DNA of 49,365 nucleotides from the NCBI GenBank assembly GCA_017650365.1, contig JAGCEZ010000093.1:1-49365 (forward strand), in the 5' to 3' direction. This DNA is from Fibrobacterales bacterium (lineage in GTDB: Bacteria; Fibrobacterota; Fibrobacteria; Fibrobacterales; CADBQJ01). The notes below the pieces were generated by a model, which did no database searches, was not told the origin of the DNA, and worked only from the letters and a program-made list of their open reading frames with translations. Every line of letters begins with the position of its first letter. The stretch's first letter is position 1. Made by a program: the position numbers and the translations under genes. This document shows positions 1 through 25,961 of the stretch, in pieces.

Positions 1-1861
<1,861 letters not shown>

Positions 1862-1878
1862 CGGTCTCTCCCGCGCGC

Positions 1879-3264
1879 CTAGCCGCAGCGCGCCTTGTCC
1901 GGATCCTTCCCGACGTAGTCGGGGTAGCGGTTGTCGAAGCAGGCGGCGCAGTAGCTTCCGCCGTCCCCGGTGCACTCCTTCATCCCCTCGACGCTCAGGT
2001 AGCCGAGGCTCTCCACGCCGAGCATCCTCGCGATCTCCGCCGGGGTCATGGAGCTCGCGGCCAGCTCGCCCGCGCTCGGGAAGTCCATCCCGAAGAAGCA
2101 GGGATGCGCCACGGGCGGCGACGCGATCCGGACGTGCACCTCCGTCGCGCCCGCGTCCCGGATCATCTTCGAGAGGATCTTGAGCGTGGTGCCGCGCACG
2201 AGCGAGTCCTCGACGACGCAGACGCGCTTGTTCCTCAGCACGCCCTCGATGGGGTTGAACTTCAGCCTGACCTTCTGCTCGCGCACGTTCTGCGTGGGGT
2301 CGATGAAGGTGCGCCCCACGTAGTGGTTGCGGAGGAGCCCGATCTCGAACCGGATCCCGCTCGCCTGCGCGTAGCCGAGCGCGGCGGTGGTGGCGCTGTC
2401 GGGGACGGCGATCACGATGTCGGCGTCCACGGGGCACTCCTTCGCGAGCTGCTTGCCCATCTTCCGGCGGATCTTGTCGCAGCTCTGCTCGAAGACGCGC
2501 GAGTCGGGGCGGCTGAAGTAGATGTACTCGAAGATGCAGTGGGCGAGCCGGTCCCGGTGCGCGAAGCGCTCGGAGCGGAGCCCGTCCTTCGTGATCTCCA
2601 GGAACTCGCCGGGCTGGACGTCGCGCACGTAACGCGCCCCGAGCAGGTCGAACGCGCACGTCTCGCTGGCGACGCACCAGGCCCGGCCCATGCGGGCGAG
2701 CGAGAGCGGGCGGAACCCGAACCCGTCGCGCGCGACGTACATCGCGTCCTTCGTGACGAACACCAGGCAGAAGCTGCCCGTCAGCTTCGCGAGCGCCTTC
2801 TTCACGGCCTCCGCGAGGCAGCCCGCCTCCGTGCGCGCGATCTCGTGCAGCAGGATCTCGGAGTCGGACGTGGTCTGGAAGATGTGGCCCTCCTCCTCCA
2901 TCTCGGCCCGGAGCTCGGGCGCGTTCGTGATGTTGCCGTTGTGCGCGACGGCGATCTGGCCCCACTTGCAGCCCACGAGGATCGGCTGCGCGTTCGCGAG
3001 CGTGCTCGCGCCCGTGGTGCTGTAGCGCACGTGGCCGACGCCGGCGAACCCCTTCAGCAGGTCGATGTCGTGGTCCTGGAGCAGCGCGGAGACCAGCCCC
3101 ATGGACTTGCGGACCCGCACCTTCGAGCCGTCGGCGACGGCGAACCCGGCGCTCTCCTGCCCGCGGTGCTGCAGGGCGTAGAGGCCCATGGCGATGTTCT
3201 TCGCGACGTTCTCGCCGTCGTATATGCCGATGACCCCGCATTCTTCGTGCAAACCGTCGAGCAT
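1879..3264 (-). CDS. purF: Amidophosphoribosyltransferase (first committed step of purine synthesis)
   Basis: PurF transfers glutamine amide nitrogen to PRPP to give phosphoribosylamine. The 461-residue product starts MLDGLHEECGVIGIYDGENV: a short propeptide before the catalytic Cys9, as in Bacillus-type PurF. Canonical glutaminase residues are present (LQHRGQESAGFA, VAHNGNITNAPEL with the oxyanion-hole Asn-Gly, TTSDSEILLHE). The phosphoribosyltransferase domain carries the PRPP loop VCVVEDSLVRGTTL. C-terminal cysteines (CTGDGGSYCAACF), with others upstream, fit the Fe-S cluster type. An AAGGAAG sequence precedes the ATG. It lies 94 nt after glnN and 17 nt before carA. A second, more divergent PurF homologue is at 13495-14967. 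Confidence 0.95.
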   Translation of the reverse strand: MLDGLHEECGVIGIYDGENVAKNIAMGLYALQHRGQESAGFAVADGSKVRVRKSMGLVSALLQDHDIDLLKGFAGVGHVRYSTTGASTLANAQPILVGCKWGQIAVAHNGNITNAPELRAEMEEEGHIFQTTSDSEILLHEIARTEAGCLAEAVKKALAKLTGSFCLVFVTKDAMYVARDGFGFRPLSLARMGRAWCVASETCAFDLLGARYVRDVQPGEFLEITKDGLRSERFAHRDRLAHCIFEYIYFSRPDSRVFEQSCDKIRRKMGKQLAKECPVDADIVIAVPDSATTAALGYAQASGIRFEIGLLRNHYVGRTFIDPTQNVREQKVRLKFNPIEGVLRNKRVCVVEDSLVRGTTLKILSKMIRDAGATEVHVRIASPPVAHPCFFGMDFPSAGELAASSMTPAEIARMLGVESLGYLSVEGMKECTGDGGSYCAACFDNRYPDYVGKDPDKARCG

Positions 3265-3301
3265 CTTCTTCCTTCGGACTGTGGTTCCCTTCCTGCGGCG
3301 A

Positions 3302-3330
3302 ATTCCCGCGTCCTTCCGGAGCGCGGGAAT
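3302..3330 (-). other. Hairpin between glnN and purF
   Basis: ATTCCCGCG (3302-3310) pairs exactly with CGCGGGAAT (3322-3330) around an 11-nt loop, in the 94-nt gap after the glnN stop codon. There is no U-run on either side, so it is not a classical terminator; it may stabilise the glnN mRNA end or attenuate read-through into purF. Confidence 0.4.
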
Positions 3331-3358
3331 CCCCTTCGGATTCTCGTTCGGACCCGGA

Positions 3359-5479
3359 TCAGTAGACGAACAGCATCTCCCTGTACTTGGGGAGCGGCCA
3401 CTTGCCGTCGGGGACGATCCCCTCGACTTCGTCCACCACGGTCCGCAGCGCGGCCATCGCCTCGAGGATCCGCTCGTGCTTCTCGCCGAGCGCCTTCCCC
3501 ATCCGGGCGACCGCGCTCTCGAGGGCCGCGTACTTCTCGCCGAGCTCGCGGGCGCGGGCGCCGACGCCGGGCAGCCCCTGCTCCTTGGCCATCGCGTTCG
3601 CCGACAGGGCCTCGGCGTAGGCCTCGAGGAGCTGCGGGAGGACGATGTCGCGGGCCATGCCGTAGGCGATCTTGCCCTCGATGTGGATCCTCTTGTGGTA
3701 CTCCTCGAGGTTCACCTCGTAGCGGGACTCCAGCTCGCGCCGGTTGAACACGCCGTACTTCTCGAACAGGGCGACGTTCGCCTTCGAGTTCAGCGCCTTG
3801 AGCGCCTCCATCGTGGTGCGCGTGTTGGGAAGCCCGCGGCGTTCGGCCTCGGCCACCCATTCGTCGGTGTAGCCGTTGCCGTTGAAGATCACGCGCTTGT
3901 GCTCCTTCACGATCTTCTGCAGGAGCTTCTGCAGCTCCTCGTGGAAGCGCTTCGCGGGGACCTTCGCCAGCTTGTCGGCGATCATGTCGAACGCCTCGGC
4001 GACGATCGTGTTGAGGACGACGTTCGGTTCGGAGCAGCTCTGGCTGGAGCCCGGGGCGCGGAACTCGAACTTGTTGCCGGTGAAGGCGAAGGGGCTCGTG
4101 CGGTTGCGGTCCGTGGCGTCGCGCGGGAGCGGCGGCAGCGTGTCGGAGCCGAGCTTCATCGCGCCGGCGTGCTTGCTGGACTTGGGCTCGCCCTTCTCCA
4201 GCTGCCCGACGACGTCGGCGAGCTGGTCGCCGAGGTACATCGAGATGATGGCCGGAGGCGCCTCGTTCGCGCCGAGGCGGTGGTCGTTGCCCGCGCCGGA
4301 GACGGCCATGCGGAGCAGGTCGGCGTGCGTGTCGACGGCGTAGATCACCGCGCAGAGCGTGGTGAGGAAGATGGCGTTCTGGTGCGGGTCCTTGCCGGGG
4401 TTGAGCAGGTTGGTCCCGCCGTAGTTGACGGACCAGTTGTTGTGCTTGCCCGAGCCGTTGATGCCGGCGAAGGGCTTTTCGTGCAGCAGGCAGACGAGGC
4501 CGTGGCGGTCGGCGACCTGGCGGAGGACCTCCATGATCTGCATGTTGTGGTCGCACGCGAGGTTGACCTCCTCGAACATCGGGGCGAGCTCGAACTGCGC
4601 GGGGGCGACTTCGTTGTGGCGCGTCTTGGCGGGGATGCCGAGCTTCCAGAGCTCCTTCTCCACGTCGTTCATGAAGTTCAGGATGCGCGCCGGGATGCTG
4701 CCGAAGTAGTGGTCCTCCATCTGCTGGTGCTTGGCGGGGGCGGCGCCGAAGAGCGTGCGGCCGGCCTGGTAGAGGTCGGGGCGCTGCAGGTAGAAGCGCT
4801 TGTCGACGAGGAAGTACTCCTGCTCGGCGCCGAGGGTGACGGTCACCTTCTGGCGCGGGACGCCGAAGAGGCCCATCAGGCGGTCGGCGGACTTCTGCAG
4901 GGCCTGGATGGAGCGCAGCAGCGGGGTCTTCTTGTCGAGCGCCTCGCCGGTGTAGCTGCAGAACGCGGTGGGGATGCAGAGCGTGGCGCCGTTGCCGTGG
5001 CGCTTGATGAACGCGGGCGAGGTGGGGTCCCAGGCGGTGTAGCCGCGGGCCTCGAACGTGGAGCGCAGGCCGCCGCTGGGGAAGCTGGAGGCGTCGGGCT
5101 CGCCGACGATCAGGTTCTTTCCGCTGAAGGCCATGATGGCCTTGCCGTCCTCGGGTTCGAGGAAGGAGTCGTGCTTCTCGGCGGTGGAGCCGGTGAGCGG
5201 CTGGAACCAGTGGGTGAAATGCGTGGCGCCGCGGTCGATCGCCCACTTCTTCATGGCGTGGGCGACTTCGCCGGCGATGTCCGGGTCGAGGGGGGCGCCT
5301 TCGTCGATCGTCGCGAAGAGCTTCCTGCAGATCTCCTTCGGCAGGTAGGCTCGCATGGCCTCCGCGTTGAAGACGTCCTCGCCGTAGAAGCCGAGGTCGG
5401 CCGGGGCGGCCTCCATGACGGGGGCGGCGGGCGCGGCCGCGATCTCCTTGACGGCCTTCATTCTGTATTCGTTGCTCAT
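3359..5479 (-). CDS. glnN: Glutamine synthetase type III
   Basis: This enzyme makes glutamine from glutamate, ammonia and ATP. The 706-residue length and motifs such as [17 protein letters not shown] and [18 protein letters not shown] identify GS-III, the large dodecameric form common in Bacteroidetes, Fibrobacter and cyanobacteria, rather than GS-I. The start [12 protein letters not shown] is chosen because AGGAG lies 8 nt upstream; in-frame codons further upstream would extend through the promoter. A nearly perfect sigma-54 promoter (5525-5540) would start transcription about 34 nt before the ATG. It is divergent from gltB, so GS and GOGAT are probably controlled together from the shared intergenic region. 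purF, carA and pyrG follow on the same strand. Family is certain, symbol by convention. Confidence 0.95.
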
Positions 5480-5524
5480 TGGGGCTCCTGGTGTTGCCGG
5501 GGTTTTGGTTCCGCGCTCTCTTAC

Positions 5525-5540
5525 GCAAAAACCGTGCCAA
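5525..5540 (-). promoter_or_regulatory. Sigma-54 (-24/-12) promoter of glnN
   Basis: On the minus strand the sequence reads TTGGCACGGTTTTTGC. It has the invariant GG-N10-GC spacing and matches the TGGCACG-N4-TTGC consensus completely. Transcription should begin near 5513, giving a leader of about 34 nt that includes the AGGAG ribosome-binding site of glnN. Confidence 0.92.
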
Positions 5541-5646
5541 CCCGTCGGAAGCCCGAAAAATTTTCCATCCGGGAAATAAAATGGGGGGAAAAACGGCAAC
5601 GGACGCCGGGAACCCGATGGAAGTCGCGGAAAACGAGGGTTCTGCA

Positions 5647-5665
5647 TTTTACACTCTGTGTAAAA
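5647..5665. promoter_or_regulatory. Palindromic operator/UAS candidate, copy 1
   Basis: TTTTACACTCTGTGTAAAA is a perfect 8-3-8 palindrome. It lies about 134-152 bp upstream of the predicted glnN start point, a normal distance for a sigma-54 activator binding site. Confidence 0.75.
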
Positions 5666-5676
5666 CTTCAGCCGCG

Positions 5677-5694
5677 TTTTACAAAATCTGTAAA
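5677..5694. promoter_or_regulatory. Palindromic operator/UAS candidate, copy 2
   Basis: TTTTACAAAATCTGTAAA has the same TTTACA-N5-TGTAAA core as copy 1 and begins exactly 30 bp after it, close to three helical turns, so proteins on both sites would lie on roughly the same face of the DNA. Confidence 0.72.
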
Positions 5695-5761
5695 GCAAAC
5701 CAAGAAAAAACGCGCAGGCAAGCGACTTCCGGCCGGGAAACAGGCCCAAAGGCCTCCTGCG

Positions 5762-5780
5762 TTTTACGTTTTCTGTAAAT
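5762..5780. promoter_or_regulatory. Palindromic operator/UAS candidate, copy 3
   Basis: TTTTACGTTTTCTGTAAAT keeps the TTTTAC-N6-TGTAAA layout with one mismatch in the left arm. It lies 85 bp from copy 2 and about 163-181 bp upstream of the predicted gltB start point, so it could serve the gltB side. Confidence 0.65.
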
Positions 5781-5916
5781 GATGGCGATTTCGCGCTGTT
5801 TTCGCCATATTCCCGTCACCGTTTTCCTGCCGGTTTCCGACGCGCACCGCGCGGAAGAAGGTCTCTCTGGGCCGTTTTTCGGGCCGTTTTCGCCCTTTCC
5901 CGTCCCTCTCTTATAG

Positions 5917-5932
5917 TTGGCACGATTTTTGC
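5917..5932 (+). promoter_or_regulatory. Sigma-54 (-24/-12) promoter of gltB
   Basis: TTGGCACGATTTTTGC has GG (5919-5920) and GC (5931-5932) ten bases apart and differs from the glnN promoter at a single base. Transcription should start near 5943, about 50 nt before the gltB ATG. Confidence 0.92.
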
Positions 5933-5993
5933 GATATAGGCGGGCGACAAAACCTCGAACTCGCGAAAGCGGAAGAGCCCGAAGGACTTTTTT

Positions 5994-8900
5994 ATGCAAG
6001 CGCAAGCCCTCTACGATCCGGCAAACGAACACGACGCCTGCGGCGTCGGCCTGGTCGCCAACGTCAACAACGTCGCCTCCCACCAGATCGTCCTCCAGGG
6101 CATCACGGTCCTCAAGCGGCTGATGCACCGCGGCGCCGCCGGCGGCGACCCGGAAACCGGGGACGGCGCGGGCCTGCTTCTCTCGATGCCGCACCGCTTC
6201 TTCCGCAAGGCCGTGCCCGAGCTGCCCGCCCGCTACGGCGTGGCGATGTACTTCGTGGACAACTCGCTCGCCGCCGACGCCTTCGACGCGGAGATCGCCC
6301 GCATCGCGAAGTCCGAGGGCGTGGAGACGGTCCGCTTCCGCGAAGTGCCCGTGGACCCCTCCGCCATCGGCCGTACCGCGCGCGCGACGCTGCCGCACGT
6401 CCGCCAGGCCTTCTTCGACGGCACGGCGCTGAACGGCAACGCCGCGTTCGACGTCAAGCTCTACGTGATCCGCCGCCTGGCCGAGAAGACCTGCGAAGGG
6501 CTCTACTTCTGCAGCTGCAGCCGCCGGAGCGTCGTCTACAAGGGACTCCTCCTCGCCAGCCAGATCGAGGGCTTCTACAAGGACCTGGACGACCCGGACT
6601 TCGAAAGCCCGCTCGCGCTCGTCCACCAGCGCTACTCCACCAACACCTTCCCCACGTGGCAGCTCGCGCACCCCTTCCGCTACCTCGCGCACAACGGCGA
6701 GATCAACACGCTGCGCGGCAACCTGAACAGCCTGAAGGCGCGCGAGCCGCACCTGAAGAGCGACGTCATCGGCGACGACCTGAAGAAGCTCCTGCCGCTG
6801 ATTCCCGCCGGGCAGAGCGACTCCGCCTGCCTCGACAACATGTTCGAGCTGCTGGTGGCCGCGGGCCGCAGCCTCCCGCACGCGATGATGATGCTGATGC
6901 CGCAGGCCTGGGGCGCCAAGCACTACCTGGGCCGCGACGTGCGCGGCTTCTTCGAATACGAGTCGATGCTGATGGAGCCGTGGGACGGACCGGCCGCCGT
7001 GGCCTTCAGCGACGGCGTGAACGCGGGCGCGATCCTCGACCGCAACGGCCTGCGCCCCGCGCGCTACACCCTCTGCAAGGACGGCCTCTTCGTGATGGCC
7101 TCCGAGACGGGCGTGCTCGACATCCGCGACGACGAGGTGGAGGAGAAGGGCCGCCTGAAGCCCGGCGAGATCATCTACCTCGACCTGGAGAACCGCCGCA
7201 TCCTGAGAAACGCCGAGATGAAGGCGCAGGTGGCGCGCAGCAAGCCCTACCGCCGCTGGGTGGCGGAGAACAAGATGAGCGTGCGCGGGCTCTTCGACGA
7301 GATCACCCCCTCCGACGTGCCCGACGACCTGCTCGCGCGGCAGAAGCGCTTCGGCTACTCCGCCGAGGACCTCACCGTCGTCCTGAAGCCGATGGCCGAG
7401 AAGGGCGCCGAGCCGATCGGCTCCATGGGCAACGACGCCGCGCTCGCGGTGCTCTCGGACAAGCCCCAGCCCCTCTTCGGCTACTTCAAGCAGCTCTTCG
7501 CGCAGGTCACCAACCCGCCGATCGACCCGATCCGCGAAGAGCTGGTGATGAGCCTGACGACCTACATCGGCAACCACGGCAACATCCTCGAGGAGACGCC
7601 GGAGCAGGCGCATCTGATCAAGATCCCGCGCCCGATCGTGACCGAGGAGGAGATCCGCCGATTCGAGAACATCGGCGACAAGAGCTTCAAGGCCAAGGTC
7701 CTCAAGATGCAGTTCCCGCTCGGCGGCGACGCCGACGTCCTGGAAGGGGCGCTGCAGAACCTCGCGGGCGACGCCGTCCGCGCGGTCTCCGACGGGTTCG
7801 ACATCATCGTGCTCTCCGACCGCGACCTCGACTGGGGCTACGCCCCGGTCCCGAGCCTCCTCGCCACGGCGTGCGTGAACCGCGCGCTGGTCGAGGCGGG
7901 CGTGCGCCCCGAGATCGGGCTGATCGTGCAGTCCGGGGAGGTGCGCGAGGTGATGCACTTCGCGCTGCTGCTCGGCTACGGCGCCACGGTCGTCAACCCC
8001 TACCTCGCGTTCGAGAGCATCTCGGGCATGTGCCGGAGCGGCGAGCTCGACGAAGACCCGGTGACCGCCGCCGCGAACTACGTGAAGGCGGTGGACAAGG
8101 GCCTCCTGAAGATCATGTCGAAGATGGGCATCTCGACGCTGCGCAGCTACCGCGGCGCCCAGATCTTCGAGGCGGTCGGCCTGGGCCGCGAGCTGGTCGA
8201 CCGGTTCCTGCCGGGCACGGCGAGCCGCATCGGCGGCATCGGGCTCGCGGAGATCGCGCGCGAGGCGAACGAACGCCAGCGCCTCGCCTTCTCGGACACC
8301 GGCCGCGCCCTCGTCTCGGCCGGGCAGTACTCCTGGCGCAAGGAGGGCGAAAAGCACCTCTGGACGCCGCAGTCGCTGGCCGCGTTCCGCCAGGCGGTGC
8401 AGGGGAACGACTACTCGAAGTTCAAGGTCTATTCGAAGCTGGTCGACGACCAGTCCGAACGCCAGGCCACGCTGCGCGGGCTCTTCAAGTTCAAGAAGAC
8501 GGAGCCGGTGGACATCTCCGAAGTCGAAAGCCGCGAATCCATCGTGAAGCGCTTCGTCTCCGGCGCCATGAGCCTCGGCTCGCTGAGCCCCGAGGCGCAC
8601 GAGGCGATCGCCATAGCGATGAACCGCGTGGGCGCCATGAGCAACTGCGGCGAAGGCGGCGAAGACCCCGACCGCAACACGCCCGCCCCGAACGGCGACG
8701 TCCGGAGCAGCGCCATCCGCCAGGTGGCCTCGGGCCGCTTCGGCGTCACGATCGACTACCTGCGCCGCGCCAAGGACCTGCAGATCAAGATGGCGCAGGG
8801 CGCGAAGCCCGGCGAAGGCGGCCAGCTGCCGGCGCACAAGGTGAACGCGTTCGTCGCGCGCATCCGCCACAGCATCCCCAACGTCTCGCTCATCTCGCCT

Positions 8901-10424
8901 CCCCCGCACCACGACATCTACTCCATCGAGGACCTCGCGCAGCTGATCTACGACCTGCGCAACGCGAACCCCAAGGCCCGCGTCTCGGTGAAGCTGGTCT
9001 CGGAGGTCGGCGTCGGCACGGTCGCCGCGGGCGTCGCGAAGGCGCACGCCGACGTGGTGCTGATCTCCGGCCACGACGGCGGCACGGGCGCCTCGCCCCT
9101 CACCTCCATCAAGCACGCGGGCCTGCCGTGGGAGCTCGGGATCGCCGAGGCCGAGCAGACGCTCGTGCTCAACGACCTGCGCGGCCGCGTCAAGCTCCAG
9201 GTGGACGGCCAGCTCAAGACCGGCCGCGACGTGGTGGTGGCCGCGCTCCTGGGCGCCGAGGAGTTCGGGTTCGCCACGAACCTGCTGGTCAGCCTGGGCT
9301 GCGTGATGGACCGCAAGTGCCACTCGAACACCTGCCCCATGGGCATCGCGACGCAGGACGCGGAGCTCCGCCGCCGCTTCGCGGGCAAGCCCGAATACGT
9401 CGAGAACTTCCTCTTCTTCGTCGCCGACGAGGTGCGCGAGATCCTCGCGGGCCTCGGCCTGCGCTCCCTCGACGAGGCCTGCGGCCGCAGCGACCTGCTG
9501 GAGAAGGACGAGGCGATCGGCTTCTACAAGGCGAAGAACCTCGACTTCTCGAAGATCTTCGAGACCGTCGAGAGCGGGACGAAGGCGCACGACCCCTCCT
9601 TCAAGAAGGAGCCGCTCGAGAACTTCGACCGCCGCGAGATCCTCCCGTTCGTGAAGGAGACGCTCGCGAAGGGCTCCTCCGTCGAGCTCAGCGCCGTCGT
9701 GCGCAACACCGACCGCACCGTGGGCGCCGAGCTCTCCGGCGAGATCGACGAGCGCTTCGGCGCCAAGGGGCTCCCCGAGGACACCGCGAAGATCCACCTG
9801 CAGGGCGTGGCCGGCCAGAGCTTCGGCGCGTTCCTCGCCCCGGGCGTCACGCTCGACCTCGAAGGCGAGGCGAACGACTTCATGGGCAAGGGGCTCTCCG
9901 GCGGCAAGATCGTCGTGCGCCCGCCGCGCAACGCCTCCTTCAAGGCCGAGGAGAACGTCATCGCCGGCAACGTCGTCGGCTACGGCGGCACCTCCGGGAA
10001 GATCTTCGTCAACGGCCTGGCGGGCGAGCGCTTCGGCATCCGCAACTCCGGCATGCTGCTCGTGAGCGAAGGCGTGGGCGACCACGGCTGCGAATACATG
10101 ACCGGCGGGCGGGCGGTGGTGCTCGGGCGCGTCGGCGTGAACTTCGCCGCGGGCATGACGGGCGGCTTCGCCTACGTCTACGACGAGACCGGCCACTTCG
10201 ACCTGAGCTGCAACGTCGATTCCGTGGACCTCGAAAGCGTGCTTCCGGGGACCGAAAGCGAACGCGAGCTGATCGACATCATCGAACAGCACGTCCGGGA
10301 GACCGGCAGCGAAAAGGGGCGCCGCATCCTCGACGACTGGAACGGCGAGCGCCCCAAGTTCGTCAAGGTCTTCCCCGTGGACTACAGGCGGGCGCTCCAG
10401 GCCGCCGCCGAGGCCGCGCCGTAG
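5994..10424 (+). CDS. gltB: Glutamate synthase (GOGAT) large subunit
   Basis: GltB transfers the glutamine amide to 2-oxoglutarate to make two glutamates, working with GltD. The 1476-residue protein starts MQAQALYDPANEHDACGVG. The catalytic Cys16 follows a short propeptide removed on maturation. Next come the class II glutaminase domain (HRGAAGGDPETGDGAG, LAHNGEINTLRGN), the central domain, the FMN-binding synthase domain (PGEGGQLPAHKV, SGHDGGTGASPL), the 3Fe-4S cysteines of CVMDRKCHSNTCPMG and a C-terminal beta-helix (YGGTSGKIFVNG). AAGGA precedes the ATG. The gene is driven by the sigma-54 promoter at 5917 and followed directly by gltD. Confidence 0.97.
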   Translation: MQAQALYDPANEHDACGVGLVANVNNVASHQIVLQGITVLKRLMHRGAAGGDPETGDGAGLLLSMPHRFFRKAVPELPARYGVAMYFVDNSLAADAFDAEIARIAKSEGVETVRFREVPVDPSAIGRTARATLPHVRQAFFDGTALNGNAAFDVKLYVIRRLAEKTCEGLYFCSCSRRSVVYKGLLLASQIEGFYKDLDDPDFESPLALVHQRYSTNTFPTWQLAHPFRYLAHNGEINTLRGNLNSLKAREPHLKSDVIGDDLKKLLPLIPAGQSDSACLDNMFELLVAAGRSLPHAMMMLMPQAWGAKHYLGRDVRGFFEYESMLMEPWDGPAAVAFSDGVNAGAILDRNGLRPARYTLCKDGLFVMASETGVLDIRDDEVEEKGRLKPGEIIYLDLENRRILRNAEMKAQVARSKPYRRWVAENKMSVRGLFDEITPSDVPDDLLARQKRFGYSAEDLTVVLKPMAEKGAEPIGSMGNDAALAVLSDKPQPLFGYFKQLFAQVTNPPIDPIREELVMSLTTYIGNHGNILEETPEQAHLIKIPRPIVTEEEIRRFENIGDKSFKAKVLKMQFPLGGDADVLEGALQNLAGDAVRAVSDGFDIIVLSDRDLDWGYAPVPSLLATACVNRALVEAGVRPEIGLIVQSGEVREVMHFALLLGYGATVVNPYLAFESISGMCRSGELDEDPVTAAANYVKAVDKGLLKIMSKMGISTLRSYRGAQIFEAVGLGRELVDRFLPGTASRIGGIGLAEIAREANERQRLAFSDTGRALVSAGQYSWRKEGEKHLWTPQSLAAFRQAVQGNDYSKFKVYSKLVDDQSERQATLRGLFKFKKTEPVDISEVESRESIVKRFVSGAMSLGSLSPEAHEAIAIAMNRVGAMSNCGEGGEDPDRNTPAPNGDVRSSAIRQVASGRFGVTIDYLRRAKDLQIKMAQGAKPGEGGQLPAHKVNAFVARIRHSIPNVSLISPPPHHDIYSIEDLAQLIYDLRNANPKARVSVKLVSEVGVGTVAAGVAKAHADVVLISGHDGGTGASPLTSIKHAGLPWELGIAEAEQTLVLNDLRGRVKLQVDGQLKTGRDVVVAALLGAEEFGFATNLLVSLGCVMDRKCHSNTCPMGIATQDAELRRRFAGKPEYVENFLFFVADEVREILAGLGLRSLDEACGRSDLLEKDEAIGFYKAKNLDFSKIFETVESGTKAHDPSFKKEPLENFDRREILPFVKETLAKGSSVELSAVVRNTDRTVGAELSGEIDERFGAKGLPEDTAKIHLQGVAGQSFGAFLAPGVTLDLEGEANDFMGKGLSGGKIVVRPPRNASFKAEENVIAGNVVGYGGTSGKIFVNGLAGERFGIRNSGMLLVSEGVGDHGCEYMTGGRAVVLGRVGVNFAAGMTGGFAYVYDETGHFDLSCNVDSVDLESVLPGTESERELIDIIEQHVRETGSEKGRRILDDWNGERPKFVKVFPVDYRRALQAAAEAAP

Positions 10425-10442
10425 CGGAGGATGCGTATCTTT

Positions 10443-11804
10443 ATGGACCGGATGAACAGGATACAGGACATCTACCGCCCCGTCGCCGAGCGCGTCAAGG
10501 ACCGCGACGAGGTGGAGCGCAGGCTCGCGGCCGAAGAGGCCGAGGGCCAGGCCGCGCGCTGCCGCGACTGCGGCATCCCCTTCTGCCACGGCGCGGGCTG
10601 CCCGCTCGGCAACCTGATCCCCGAGTTCAACGCGGCCGTCGCCGCGGGGAACCTGGAGCGCGCCCTCGACGTCATCGGCCGCACGGCCTTCTTCCCCGAG
10701 TTCACGGGGCGCGTCTGCCCCGCGCTGTGCGAATCCGCCTGCACGGGCAACGTCCACGACGACCCGGTGATGGTTCGCCAGGTCGAGAAGTTCATCGTCG
10801 AGGCCGCCTTCGAGCACGGCCTCGTCAAGCTCCCCGTGGCCGAGCCCAACGGGAAGACCGCCGCGGTCGTCGGATCGGGCCCCGCGGGCCTCTACGCCGC
10901 CGAGGCGCTGCGCCGCAAGGGCTACGCGGTCACCGTCTACGAAAAGCACCCGAAGCCCGGCGGGCTGCTCCGCTACGGCATCCCCAACTGGAAGCTCGAC
11001 AAGTCCGTCATCGACCGGCGCGTCGCGCTCCTCGAGGCCGCCGGGATCAAGTTCGTCTGCGGCACCGAGATCGGCAAGGACATCTCGGCCGACTACGTGC
11101 GCAGGCACTTCGACGAGACGGTCCTCGCGATCGGCACGCCGAACGCCCGGGACCTGAAGATCCCCGGGCGCGACGCGGAGGGGATCTTCCTCGCGCTCGA
11201 CTTCCTGCACGGCGCGGAGATGCCCGGCGAGAAGAACCCGGAACGGTTCGGCGCCAGGGGGCGCAAGGTCCTCGTGATCGGCGGCGGCGACACCGGCAAC
11301 GACTGCGTGGGCAAGGCGATCCGCGAAGGGTGCGCGAGCGTCCTCCAGGTGGAGTTCATGCCCAAGCCGCCCGAAACGCGTTCCCCCTCCACGCCCTGGC
11401 CCGACTGGGCCTACATGCTGCGCACGAGCTACGCGCAGCACGAAGGCGGCGAACGCCGCTGGAACGTCTCCTCCAAGCGGTTCGTCGTCGAAAACGGACG
11501 GGTCGCCGGGGTCGAGGCGGTCCGCGTGGAATGGGAGACGTCCCCGCAGGGGCGCCCGCTCAAGCCGACCGAGGTCCCGGGCACGGAAGAGGTCATCGAA
11601 GCCGACATGGTCGTCCTCGCCATGGGGTTCGTCGGCGTCCCCGCCGAAGGGCTCGTGGCGGACCTGGGGCTGCAGCTCACCCCCCGAGGTGCGATCGTCC
11701 CCGATCCGGAACGCCACGTCCACGCCGTCGGCGACTGCGCCACCGGCGCCTCGCTCGTCGTCCGCGCCATGGCCGACGCCAAGCGCGTCGTCGCCGGGCT
11801 CTGA
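10443..11804 (+). CDS. gltD: Glutamate synthase small subunit
   Basis: GltD oxidises NAD(P)H and feeds electrons through FAD and Fe-S centres to GltB. N-terminal cysteines (CRDCGIPFCHGAGCPLGN, CPALCESACTG) bind 4Fe-4S clusters. Two dinucleotide folds follow: AAVVGSGPAGLYAAEAL for FAD and VLVIGGGDTGNDCVG for NAD(P)H. The C-terminal HAVGDCATGASLVV is the usual FAD contact. The start MDRMNRIQDIYRP is preferred: GGAGG at 10426-10430 is 12 nt upstream, whereas it directly abuts an alternative ATG at 10431 and could not serve it. With this start the protein has 453 residues. It lies 18 nt after gltB in the same operon. Confidence 0.95.
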   Translation: MDRMNRIQDIYRPVAERVKDRDEVERRLAAEEAEGQAARCRDCGIPFCHGAGCPLGNLIPEFNAAVAAGNLERALDVIGRTAFFPEFTGRVCPALCESACTGNVHDDPVMVRQVEKFIVEAAFEHGLVKLPVAEPNGKTAAVVGSGPAGLYAAEALRRKGYAVTVYEKHPKPGGLLRYGIPNWKLDKSVIDRRVALLEAAGIKFVCGTEIGKDISADYVRRHFDETVLAIGTPNARDLKIPGRDAEGIFLALDFLHGAEMPGEKNPERFGARGRKVLVIGGGDTGNDCVGKAIREGCASVLQVEFMPKPPETRSPSTPWPDWAYMLRTSYAQHEGGERRWNVSSKRFVVENGRVAGVEAVRVEWETSPQGRPLKPTEVPGTEEVIEADMVVLAMGFVGVPAEGLVADLGLQLTPRGAIVPDPERHVHAVGDCATGASLVVRAMADAKRVVAGL

Positions 11805-11845
11805 TTTCCGGACCGCCGCCCGGGAGGCCGCTCCGGGCGAATTTC

Positions 11846-11851
11846 TAGATT
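11846..11851 (+). promoter_or_regulatory. -10 element of the sigma-54 activator gene (leaderless)
   Basis: CTAGATT followed by CGGGGG; the T of TAGATT is 13 nt before the A of the ATG at 11859, so transcription is predicted to begin at or next to the start codon. It suggests the activator has its own sigma-70-type promoter in addition to any read-through from gltBD. Confidence 0.6.
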
Positions 11852-11858
11852 CGGGGGG

Positions 11859-13373
<1,515 letters not shown>

Positions 13374-13429
13374 GCCCGGAAATGCCGTTTTCGGGCCCGC
13401 GGCCGGTTCGCGGACCCCGCCGGAATTTC

Positions 13430-13435
13430 TAACTT
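13430..13435 (+). promoter_or_regulatory. -10 element upstream of the second purF
   Basis: CTAACTT followed by CGGG, the same element as at 11846. Predicted start is near 13442, leaving a leader of about 50 nt with AAAGGGG before the ATG at 13495. Confidence 0.5.
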
Positions 13436-13494
13436 CGGGCCATACGGTCCGTCCGCGCCCGGAGACCCGGGGCGCACGGTCCAAAGGGGCTACT

Positions 13495-14967
13495 ATGGGC
13501 GGCTTTTGCGGCGTCATCTCCAAAGACGATTGCGTCTGCGATCTCTTCTTCGGAACCGACTACCACTCGCACCTGGGGACGCACCGCGGCGGCATGGCCG
13601 TGCTGAAGCCCGACGGGACGTTCCACCGCTCCATCCACAACATCCAGAACACCCCCTTCCGCAGCAAGTTCGAGCACGACCTCGTCCACTTCTCGGGGCA
13701 CGTCGGCATCGGCGTGATCTCCGACACCGACCCGCAGCCGCTCATCATGAGCACCCGGCTCGGGCTCTTCGCGATCGTCACCGTCGGCCTGATCACCAAC
13801 ATCGAGGAGCTGAAGGCGGAGCTGTTCCGCGGCAACCGGATGCAGCTCCAATACTCCACCAACAGCGGGATGGTCGGCCCGACCGAGGTGATCTCCGCGC
13901 TGATCGCCACGCAGGACTCGATCGTCGACGGTCTGAAGCACGTCCAGGAGAAGATCGAGGGCAGCTGCTCGATTCTCCTCTTCGACGAACACGGGCGGCT
14001 CTTCGCCAGCCGCGACAAGTGGGGCCGCACGCCCATCGTCCTCGGGAAGAAGGACCGCTCCATGATCGCCCTGCAGGAGAGCTGCGCGCTCCCCAACCTG
14101 GGCTACGAGCACGTCCGCGACATCGGCCCGGGCGAAGTGGTCGAGCTCACGCCCGAAGGGTGCGAGACGCTCGTCCCCCCGCGCGACAAGATGGCGATCT
14201 GCGCCTTCCTCTGGGTCTACTACGGATACCCCGCCTCCAGCTACGAGGGGCGCAACGTGGAGATGACGCGCTACCGGTGCGGCTCCGCGCTGGCCAAGCG
14301 GACGCCGACCGAGGCCGACGCCGCCTGCGGGATCCCCGACTCCGGCACGTCGCACGCGCTGGGCTACGCGCACGAGGCCAACGTCAAGTTCGCGCGCCCC
14401 TTCGTCAAGTACACGCCCACCTGGGCCCGCTCCTTCATGCCGCAGGACCAGCGCCAGCGCGAGCACGTCGCCTCGATGAAGCTCATCCCGATCCCCGGGC
14501 TGATCAAGGACCGCCGCCTGGTCTTCTGCGACGACTCCATCGTGCGCGGCACGCAGCTCGGCAAGCAGGCGCAGAAGCTCTACTCGCTCGGCTGCAGGGA
14601 GACGCACATGCGCATCGCCTGCCCGCCGCTCGTCTATCCCTGCAAGTTCATCAACTTCTCCCGGTCGAAGAGCGAATACGACCTGATCACGCGCCGCTAC
14701 ATCCGCGAGAAGGAGGGCGACGCCGCCGACGTCTCCAAGTACACGGACCCCGACGGCGAGGCCTACAAGGGGATGGTGGAGTACATCCGCGAAAAGCTCC
14801 ACCTGACGAGCCTGGCCTTCCAGCGCCTCGACGACCTGATCCGCGCCATCGGCCTGCCCGCCGAACAGCTCTGCACCTACTGCTGGAGCGGCAAGGACTA
14901 CGCGGTGAACGGCGAATGCCACCACTGCGCCCGCGAAGGCGGCGACCGCCCCTGCGGAAAGAAGTGA
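13495..14967 (+). CDS. PurF-like amidophosphoribosyltransferase paralogue with altered glutaminase site
   Basis: This 490-residue PurF homologue begins MGGFCGVISKDDCVCDLFFG, with a possible nucleophile Cys5 behind a four-residue leader. Its phosphoribosyltransferase half is intact, with the PRPP loop LVFCDDSIVRGTQL and the C-terminal cysteines CTYCW and CHHC. The glutaminase half differs from the other PurF (1879-3264): HRGQESAG is replaced by HRGGMAV and the oxyanion-hole AHNGNITN by VTVGLITN, losing the usual Asn. From memory, similar 'MGGF' paralogues exist in Bacteroidetes beside the ordinary PurF. It may use glutamine differently, use ammonia, or do another PRPP-dependent reaction. AAAGGGG precedes the ATG. 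It follows the activator and precedes an unrelated outer-membrane protein. Confidence 0.85.
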   Translation: MGGFCGVISKDDCVCDLFFGTDYHSHLGTHRGGMAVLKPDGTFHRSIHNIQNTPFRSKFEHDLVHFSGHVGIGVISDTDPQPLIMSTRLGLFAIVTVGLITNIEELKAELFRGNRMQLQYSTNSGMVGPTEVISALIATQDSIVDGLKHVQEKIEGSCSILLFDEHGRLFASRDKWGRTPIVLGKKDRSMIALQESCALPNLGYEHVRDIGPGEVVELTPEGCETLVPPRDKMAICAFLWVYYGYPASSYEGRNVEMTRYRCGSALAKRTPTEADAACGIPDSGTSHALGYAHEANVKFARPFVKYTPTWARSFMPQDQRQREHVASMKLIPIPGLIKDRRLVFCDDSIVRGTQLGKQAQKLYSLGCRETHMRIACPPLVYPCKFINFSRSKSEYDLITRRYIREKEGDAADVSKYTDPDGEAYKGMVEYIREKLHLTSLAFQRLDDLIRAIGLPAEQLCTYCWSGKDYAVNGECHHCAREGGDRPCGKK

Positions 14968-24998: not shown

Positions 24999-25961
24999 TC
25001 AGGAAGGGTCCTTCGCGCACCGCAGCGCGCGGCCGTAGGACTTGAGGAATCCCCTGTAGACCGGCTCCCCTTCGTCGCTCTCCGCGGCGAAGCGCCTGTA
25101 GTAGGCGTCCGACGGGAGCGTGCTCTCCGTCGCGGTCCAGAACGCGGCGACGGAGTCGGCGTCGAAGTACTCCCCGTCCGCCGTGCGGAACCCCGTGGGC
25201 GCGGCCGCGAAGCCGTGGAGGTCGACGCCGTTCCACGAACGCGCGCGCAGCAGCGCGGTCGGCGGATCCCAGGGCCAGGAGCCCGCGACCTCGTTCAGGA
25301 GCGCGTCCCACTCCCGGTTCGTCGGGACGTGCCACCCCTCCGGGCAGATCCCCCTGTGCGGGACGTCGATTTCGCCCGCCGCCGGCGCGTTCTGCCATCC
25401 GGGGTCCAGGTCCATCGCCGCGGTCCAGGTGTAGAGCCTCCCGCGCCGGGCGCACGCGGCCTCGTCGTCGTCGAAGCACCAGGAGTTGCGGACGAGGCCG
25501 CGCGAAATCGCCGTGTCGTTGTAGTCCAGGTTCTCCGCCATCCACAGCCGCCGGCCGATCCGGACGGTCCTGTAGCTCTTCCCGTCGCGCGGGTCCACGA
25601 GCGTCCCGCAGGCCGAGTCCCGGGCCAGGAGCTCCCTGCCCCGCGGATCGCAGAGCTTCTTCGCCGGGTCGTAGGGCTCGCCCGCGCAGACCGGCTTCAT
25701 CCGCTGGCCGTCGAGGCAGAACCTCGCGTCGCGGTCGATCCGCCCGGACGCGCACCGCCAGACCAGGTGGTTGCGCTGGCGGCGGTCCTGGACGCAGCTC
25801 TTCTCCGCCGGGTCGTAGCGCACGCCGTCGCAGCGCCGCGTCTCCGCGGAGCGCTCCCGCGCGTCGTCCCGGCCCTCCGCGGGCTCCGCGTTCTCCTTCC
25901 TGCCGCAGCCGAGCGCGGCGAGCGCGAGGAAAAGGGCGAGGGCGGCGGGGAACGTTCTCAT
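24999..25961 (-). CDS. FISUMP-domain lipoprotein
   Basis: The 320-residue lipoprotein (LALAALGC, Cys19) has a Cys-rich spacer with repeated 'YDPAEKSC/YDPAKKLC' units (about 45-115). The C-terminal FISUMP domain (about 125-320) shows KSYRTVRIGRRLWMAENLDY, CARRGRLYTWTAAM, GICPEGWHVPTNREWDALL and FWTATES, ending ALRCAKD. The domain is named from Fibrobacter succinogenes, where it is highly expanded, and occurs on surface proteins; its role is unknown. The ATG has no ribosome-binding site and a -10 element lies 12 nt before it. It is divergent from ybaK across 59 nt. Confidence 0.88.
   Translation of the reverse strand: MRTFPAALALFLALAALGCGRKENAEPAEGRDDARERSAETRRCDGVRYDPAEKSCVQDRRQRNHLVWRCASGRIDRDARFCLDGQRMKPVCAGEPYDPAKKLCDPRGRELLARDSACGTLVDPRDGKSYRTVRIGRRLWMAENLDYNDTAISRGLVRNSWCFDDDEAACARRGRLYTWTAAMDLDPGWQNAPAAGEIDVPHRGICPEGWHVPTNREWDALLNEVAGSWPWDPPTALLRARSWNGVDLHGFAAAPTGFRTADGEYFDADSVAAFWTATESTLPSDAYYRRFAAESDEGEPVYRGFLKSYGRALRCAKDPS

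Follow-up and report, generated by a model that had tools for sequence, protein, structure and literature searches.

A predicted two-way sigma-54 control region between glnN and gltB in a Fibrobacterales genome

RNA polymerase carrying sigma-54 requires an AAA+ activator bound at enhancers. In the enterobacterial NtrC/sigma-54 system of glnA (glnALG), the glutamine synthetase gene has a sigma-54 promoter with paired dyad enhancers ~100-200 bp upstream, and the activator gene lies within the operon of its target, both of which are features of the locus described here. NtrC sites have a 6-N5-6 dyad geometry, as do the dyads of this locus. A second family, NifA and the NifA-like proteins including Aquifex Nlh1 and Nlh2, has the GAF-AAA+-Fis architecture that is also found in the activator encoded here. 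In Geobacter sulfurreducens, RpoN dependence has been demonstrated for the glnB-glnA promoter, and the GOGAT operon has a predicted RpoN box ahead of it (PMC2725144).

The glnN-gltB locus and its promoters

The analysed stretch, hereafter the window, comprises 49,365 nucleotides of a Fibrobacterales genome (GCA_017650365.1, contig JAGCEZ010000093.1). On its minus strand, glnN (3359-5479) encodes a 706-aa type III glutamine synthetase (GS-III) that contains both the GSIII_N and the GSIII C-terminal domains (PF12437, 255 bits; PF18318, 138 bits; PF00120), and is followed after 94 bp by purF (1879-3264, minus strand), encoding glutamine PRPP amidotransferase (TIGR01134, above cut-off). On the plus strand, gltB (5994-10424; 1476 aa) and gltD (10431-11804; 457 aa) encode the large and small subunits of glutamate synthase, and both exceed the cut-offs of their models (NF008730, 1681 against 1047; TIGR01317, 490.6 against 447.7), which assigns the enzyme to NADPH-type GOGAT. 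The identities of GS-III and GltB proposed in an earlier sequence-only reading of this DNA thus hold. The last gene of the gltB-gltD operon, 54 bp after gltD, encodes a NifA-like sigma-54 activator of 504 aa (11859-13373, plus strand), the proposed regulator of both promoters. A simple scan of the coding strand revealed no terminator-like site between glnN and purF or between gltD and the activator gene, and purF is probably on the glnN transcript; in Fibrobacter, purF has an enhancer and a sigma-54 box of its own. Elsewhere in the window, a FISUMP-domain protein is encoded at 24999-25961 (the model is named for Fibrobacter succinogenes).

The sequence-only reading had placed two divergent -24/-12 promoters in the 514-bp intergenic region, and both 16-mers were found at the claimed coordinates and strands: TTGGCACGGTTTTTGC before glnN (5525-5540, minus strand; predicted transcription start ~5513) and TTGGCACGATTTTTGC before gltB (5917-5932, plus strand; predicted transcription start ~5943). 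They face outward, carry the GG-N10-GC spacing within surroundings that match TGGCAC-N5-TTGC exactly on both strands, and are one base apart; as an inverted pair, the similarity extends to 18 bp with a 94% match. Across the whole genome (2,079,203 bases), TGGCACGNTTTTTGC occurs with zero mismatches at these two sites only, and the window as a whole contains two exact copies of TGGCAC-N5-TTGC. When the 514-bp region was shuffled 20,000 times with its dinucleotides preserved, a single exact TGGCAC-N5-TTGC on either strand appeared in 10 shuffles and both copies together in none. The distances of 34 and ~50 nt to the start codons given in the earlier reading are correct when taken from the predicted transcription start to the ATG but not as the gap between box and start codon, which, counted from the -12 GC, is 45 nt for glnN and 61 nt for gltB. 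The genome contains rpoN (PF04552, 149 bits), the sigma factor gene on which that reading depended.

Palindromes between the promoters and a candidate activator

The promoters of the earlier reading stand, but its picture was incomplete: three palindromes that resemble enhancers went unnoticed, as did the activator gene of the gltBD operon and a wider regulon. Between the two promoters lie three palindromes of the form TTTACR-N5-TGTAAA, whose distances were measured from the start of each box to the dyad centre: TTTACACTCTGTGTAAA (5648-5664; 117 bp to the glnN box, 262 bp to the gltB box), TTTACAAAATCTGTAAA (5678-5694; 147 and 232 bp) and TTTACGTTTTCTGTAAA (5763-5779; 232 and 147 bp). The set is nearly mirror-symmetric between the two boxes. 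Allowing at most one mismatch, this motif occurs in the whole genome at these three sites only, and two or more palindromes appeared in none of 20,000 shuffles of the intergenic region. All six dyad-box distances in the window deviate by at most 1.5 bp from whole 10.5-bp turns. Dyad-promoter distances across loci likewise track the helical repeat, with a Rayleigh R of 0.65 at 10.5 bp (n=122) and of 0.59 for unique proximal distances (n=41), compared with ~0.1 at periods of 12-13 bp; the genomes are related, so that formal p-values would be unsafe. Helical phasing is the signature expected from enhancer looping.

In one rival explanation, an unrelated regulator (a repressor or an activator) that works with sigma-70 uses the palindromes as its operators, and activation of the sigma-54 boxes comes from another place. 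Dimeric repressors, too, typically have perfect dyads of such a size. However, the palindromes stand 30-260 bp from the sigma-54 boxes without overlap, keep helical phase with them and are paired ~30 bp apart in an enhancer-like manner, and a simple scan of limited value found no sigma-70-like promoter at 1500-13600. We consider a sigma-70 operator very unlikely.

Domain composition assigns the operon-encoded protein to the enhancer-binding proteins: it combines a GAF domain, an AAA+ domain with the GAFTGA motif (PF00158, 238 bits) and a Fis-type HTH (PF02954, 35 bits), and Walker A and B motifs can be read in its sequence. It scores 478.3 bits against the NifA equivalog TIGR01817, under the cut-off of 528.85, and its N terminus is a GAF rather than a phosphoreceiver domain, which sets it apart from NtrC. 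Its best solved relatives are full-length NifA (9qq6) and the GAF domains of Nlh1 and Nlh2. Among 61 genomes, orthologues at 76-84% identity are confined to genera g2 and g7 and the window's genome, and the other genera of the order offer a match of at most ~47% over the full length. Among the other named MAGs, the module is present in 5 of 11 genomes, and all five carry an orthologue of the activator at 60-70% identity. The module-linked activators form one clade (100/100 support) with the recognition helix SPRMM[NTS]YR, and activators from module-less genomes have other recognition helices. The exception is MAG G178 (L015), which encodes an activator with the same helix, yet has a glnN with neither palindrome nor box.

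The boxes and palindromes, their conservation and helical phasing, the operon membership of the activator gene and its co-occurrence with the palindromes, as read from sequence and from comparison with relatives, are consistent with a two-way sigma-54 element, which we regard as likely: an activator bound at the dyads would open both promoters, those of glnN(-purF) and of gltB-gltD-activator, and would be auto-activated. RNA polymerase with RpoN would wait at the two outward -24/-12 boxes until the GAF-AAA+-Fis protein, the product of the last gene in the gltB-gltD operon, occupies the three palindromes and opens both promoters through DNA looping and ATP hydrolysis, turning on glnN, probably with purF, in one direction and gltB-gltD-activator in the other. 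Since the activator gene lies inside its target operon, the response would amplify itself. The GAF domain, possibly together with a PII protein, would sense the signal, most likely a low level of glutamine or a high level of 2-oxoglutarate. The GAF domain of Azotobacter NifA, which binds 2-oxoglutarate, provides a precedent for such a signal (cited in PMC9866876). Direct binding of the activator to the dyads, positive autoregulation and a nitrogen signal through GAF are what we infer from this arrangement.

Alternatively, the sigma-54 promoters could be real and the palindromes bound by another activator, for example an NtrC-like response regulator, with the cis-encoded protein a passenger. 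The genome encodes three further sigma-54 activators (C107, C118 and C8), and in Fibrobacter a second glnN has as its neighbour a paralogue that lacks GAF, together with a near-identical half site, TTACA-N4-TGTAA. Nevertheless, in Fibrobacterota and PVC genomes alike it is only the orthologue group of the cis-encoded activator whose occurrence follows that of the palindrome, and that group is the fully supported clade with its distinct recognition helix. Moreover, no consensus site for NtrC, NifA, NtcA, GlnR/TnrA or IHF was found in the intergenic region (5480-5993), which contains neither the TGT-N10-ACA enhancer of NifA nor a TGCAC-type NtrC dyad. Control by one of the other activators thus appears unlikely, and the cis-encoded protein is the preferred candidate.

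The second Fibrobacter glnN (78%) is divergent from the GAF-less activator paralogue (L291:2525-2880; L002:9826-10000; L003:9754-10000), and the gap between them contains the TTACA-N4-TGTAA dyads, whose spacer is one base shorter, with no sigma-54 box seen; this locus may represent a related switch in which the spacing has changed. In several relatives, a TTTACATAAAGTGTAAC-like dyad lies inside the gltB coding region, ~1.1 kb from the gene start (L004:3132, L292:9699, L293:659, L146:1917, L297:4052), and may reflect a coding constraint or an internal site. The window's genome also carries a second GS-III (54%; G000:C61:3470-5629), shared with its congener G001, and neither dyads nor a sigma-54 box were found in the stretch examined around it.

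Distribution of the proposed switch and origin of the cassette

Upstream regions of glnN were compared in 30 genomes, comprising the window and 29 relatives. The GG and GC bases are kept in all 30, with a -24/-12 box at -50 to -81 before glnN, and all 30 combine a sigma-54 box with a dyad (at most two mismatches). Dyad pairs 28-32 bp apart precede glnN in 24 of the 30 at this threshold and in 30 when three mismatches are allowed, and two coding control stretches of the glnN loci contained dyads in none of the 30. Divergent glnN and gltB with two outward sigma-54 boxes were also found in G021, G030, G035, G026, L297 and L009, the last a Kiritimatiellia MAG; in L004 and L005 this arrangement, both boxes included, has DNA or a gene in between. 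Dyads 30 bp apart recur in L009 and L297. The divergent layout is therefore not unique to the window's genome, but recurs in Fibrobacter and one Kiritimatiellia MAG. Together with the presence of rpoN and the conservation of the boxes, the recurrence of the paired arrangement supports the divergent sigma-54 control of glnN and gltB put forward in the sequence-only reading.

A scan for the full pattern (dyad, 58-88 bp, box) had matches in 54 of the 168 Fibrobacterota genomes; of the 41 genera only g2 and g7 were represented, and the reversed control matched none. With a gap of 15-45 bp, the pattern occurred at 11 places in 5 of the 11 genomes from which the other named loci come, and the control again gave none. 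Over all loci examined, dyad and box combine in 81 distinct promoters, compared with 0 for the reversed box, although counts are inflated because the relatives are not independent samples. All 81 precede nitrogen or glutamine genes, namely dapF (dapF-dapL-activator), glnN, gltB, gltD, glnK (glnK-amtB), purF, pyrG and asnB, with per-gene counts biased because many loci entered the set on account of their glnN, their activator or a match to the pattern. The pattern-scan matches that were read (30 from Fibrobacterota, of a larger set, and 11 others) had been selected without regard to gene, and all belong to the same class. One more promoter, with a looser box, precedes carB. Genes that make or use glutamine are thus preceded by this switch in Fibrobacter and in other gut bacteria as well. 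Short -24/-12 boxes do arise randomly in large genomes; given the shuffles, the reversed-pattern controls, the conservation across every glnN relative studied and the functional coherence of the 81 promoters, a chance resemblance with no regulatory role is close to negligible.

Neither the window's genome nor G001 yielded an AmtB ammonium transporter, although glnK-amtB is part of the regulon in Fibrobacter relatives. In L297 (G177:C13, a Lentisphaeria MAG), glnN is divergent from gltB-gltD-dapF-dapL-activator, which merges the arrangements of the window and of Fibrobacter. MAGs may contain misplaced contigs, and L297 could be such a contig of an unknown Fibrobacterota. Genus g5 (G014, G013, G033, G036, G050; L151, L304-L312) has gltB-gltD-activator with ACATTTTTGTAAC-like repeated elements and a different wiring. 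It was rejected as a second example of the switch, the activator being a 46% paralogue, gltB lacking a sigma-54 box and the glnN box lacking a TTTACA dyad, and was used as a contrast.

The nearest genomes are Fibrobacterales, namely the one congener G001 and then the Fibrobacter-like genus g2, and the best named matches of GlnN are Fibrobacter MAGs followed by Kiritimatiellota and Lentisphaerota MAGs. An origin of the window in Kiritimatiellota, to which the GlnN matches had initially pointed, was rejected in view of the Fibrobacterales kin and of the FISUMP-domain protein. Window GlnN nests within the g2 clade (100/98), and GlnN, GltB and the activator share 83-89% identity with Fibrobacter. 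ProS and PrfB share 54-66% identity with the sister family and 84-90% with G001, which has no orthologous glnN, palindromes or activator. Because GlnN falls inside the g2 clade despite the divergence of ProS and PrfB, and G001 is without the locus, the cassette (window 1879-13373) was probably transferred horizontally, its codon usage having since adapted; its GC3 is 0.95-0.98. The activator tree differs in placing the window as sister to g2 and g7. Instead of transfer, the locus may have been lost from many lineages.

Comparison with known nitrogen control

Fibrobacter and Kiritimatiellota are ammonia-dependent fibre degraders and gut inhabitants, and we found no paper on the control of ammonia assimilation in them. 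The main text of two broad sigma-54 surveys mentions neither Fibrobacter nor gltB (PMC3162934, PMC12316311). The suggestion of the sequence-only reading that divergent sigma-54 control of GS and GOGAT is undescribed for this lineage agrees with our search, which covered few subscription journals, so that absence is no proof. On balance we favour the view that the locus belongs to an undescribed, horizontally exchanged glutamine-economy regulon, in which TTTACA-N5-TGTAAA would be the dedicated operator of an auto-activated GAF-type sigma-54 activator. This protein would run both ammonia capture (glnN, gltBD, glnK-amtB) and the biosynthetic pathways that use glutamine or glutamate (purF, pyrG, asnB, carB, dapF-dapL) in Fibrobacterota and gut Kiritimatiellota and Lentisphaerota, with one divergent locus left in this genome. 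Such a regulon would take sigma-54 nitrogen control beyond ammonia capture into the glutamine-consuming synthesis of nucleotides, asparagine and cell-wall precursors. The divergent cassette, its control region and the activator would make up a unit for nitrogen assimilation that is portable and has apparently crossed between families, and the regulator, operator, promoters and target list together define a testable switch.

Each of the closest systems differs from this locus. In G. sulfurreducens, GS and GOGAT are at separate loci and operons, and the available portion of PMC2725144 describes neither a TTTACA-N5-TGTAAA enhancer nor a cis-encoded GAF activator. Compared with NifA, the targets are assimilation and biosynthesis genes instead of nif, the TGT-N10-ACA site is absent and the activator scores under the equivalog cut-off. 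In contrast to NtrC, the activator carries a GAF domain in place of a phosphoreceiver domain, and its putative dyad is TTTACA-N5-TGTAAA rather than TGCAC-type. Unlike in glnALG, the glutamine synthetase is of type III, gltB is placed under the same element, and the regulon adds purF, pyrG, asnB and dapF-dapL. What would be new with respect to known sigma-54 nitrogen control is an operator of its own, a regulator of its own and a wider target set.
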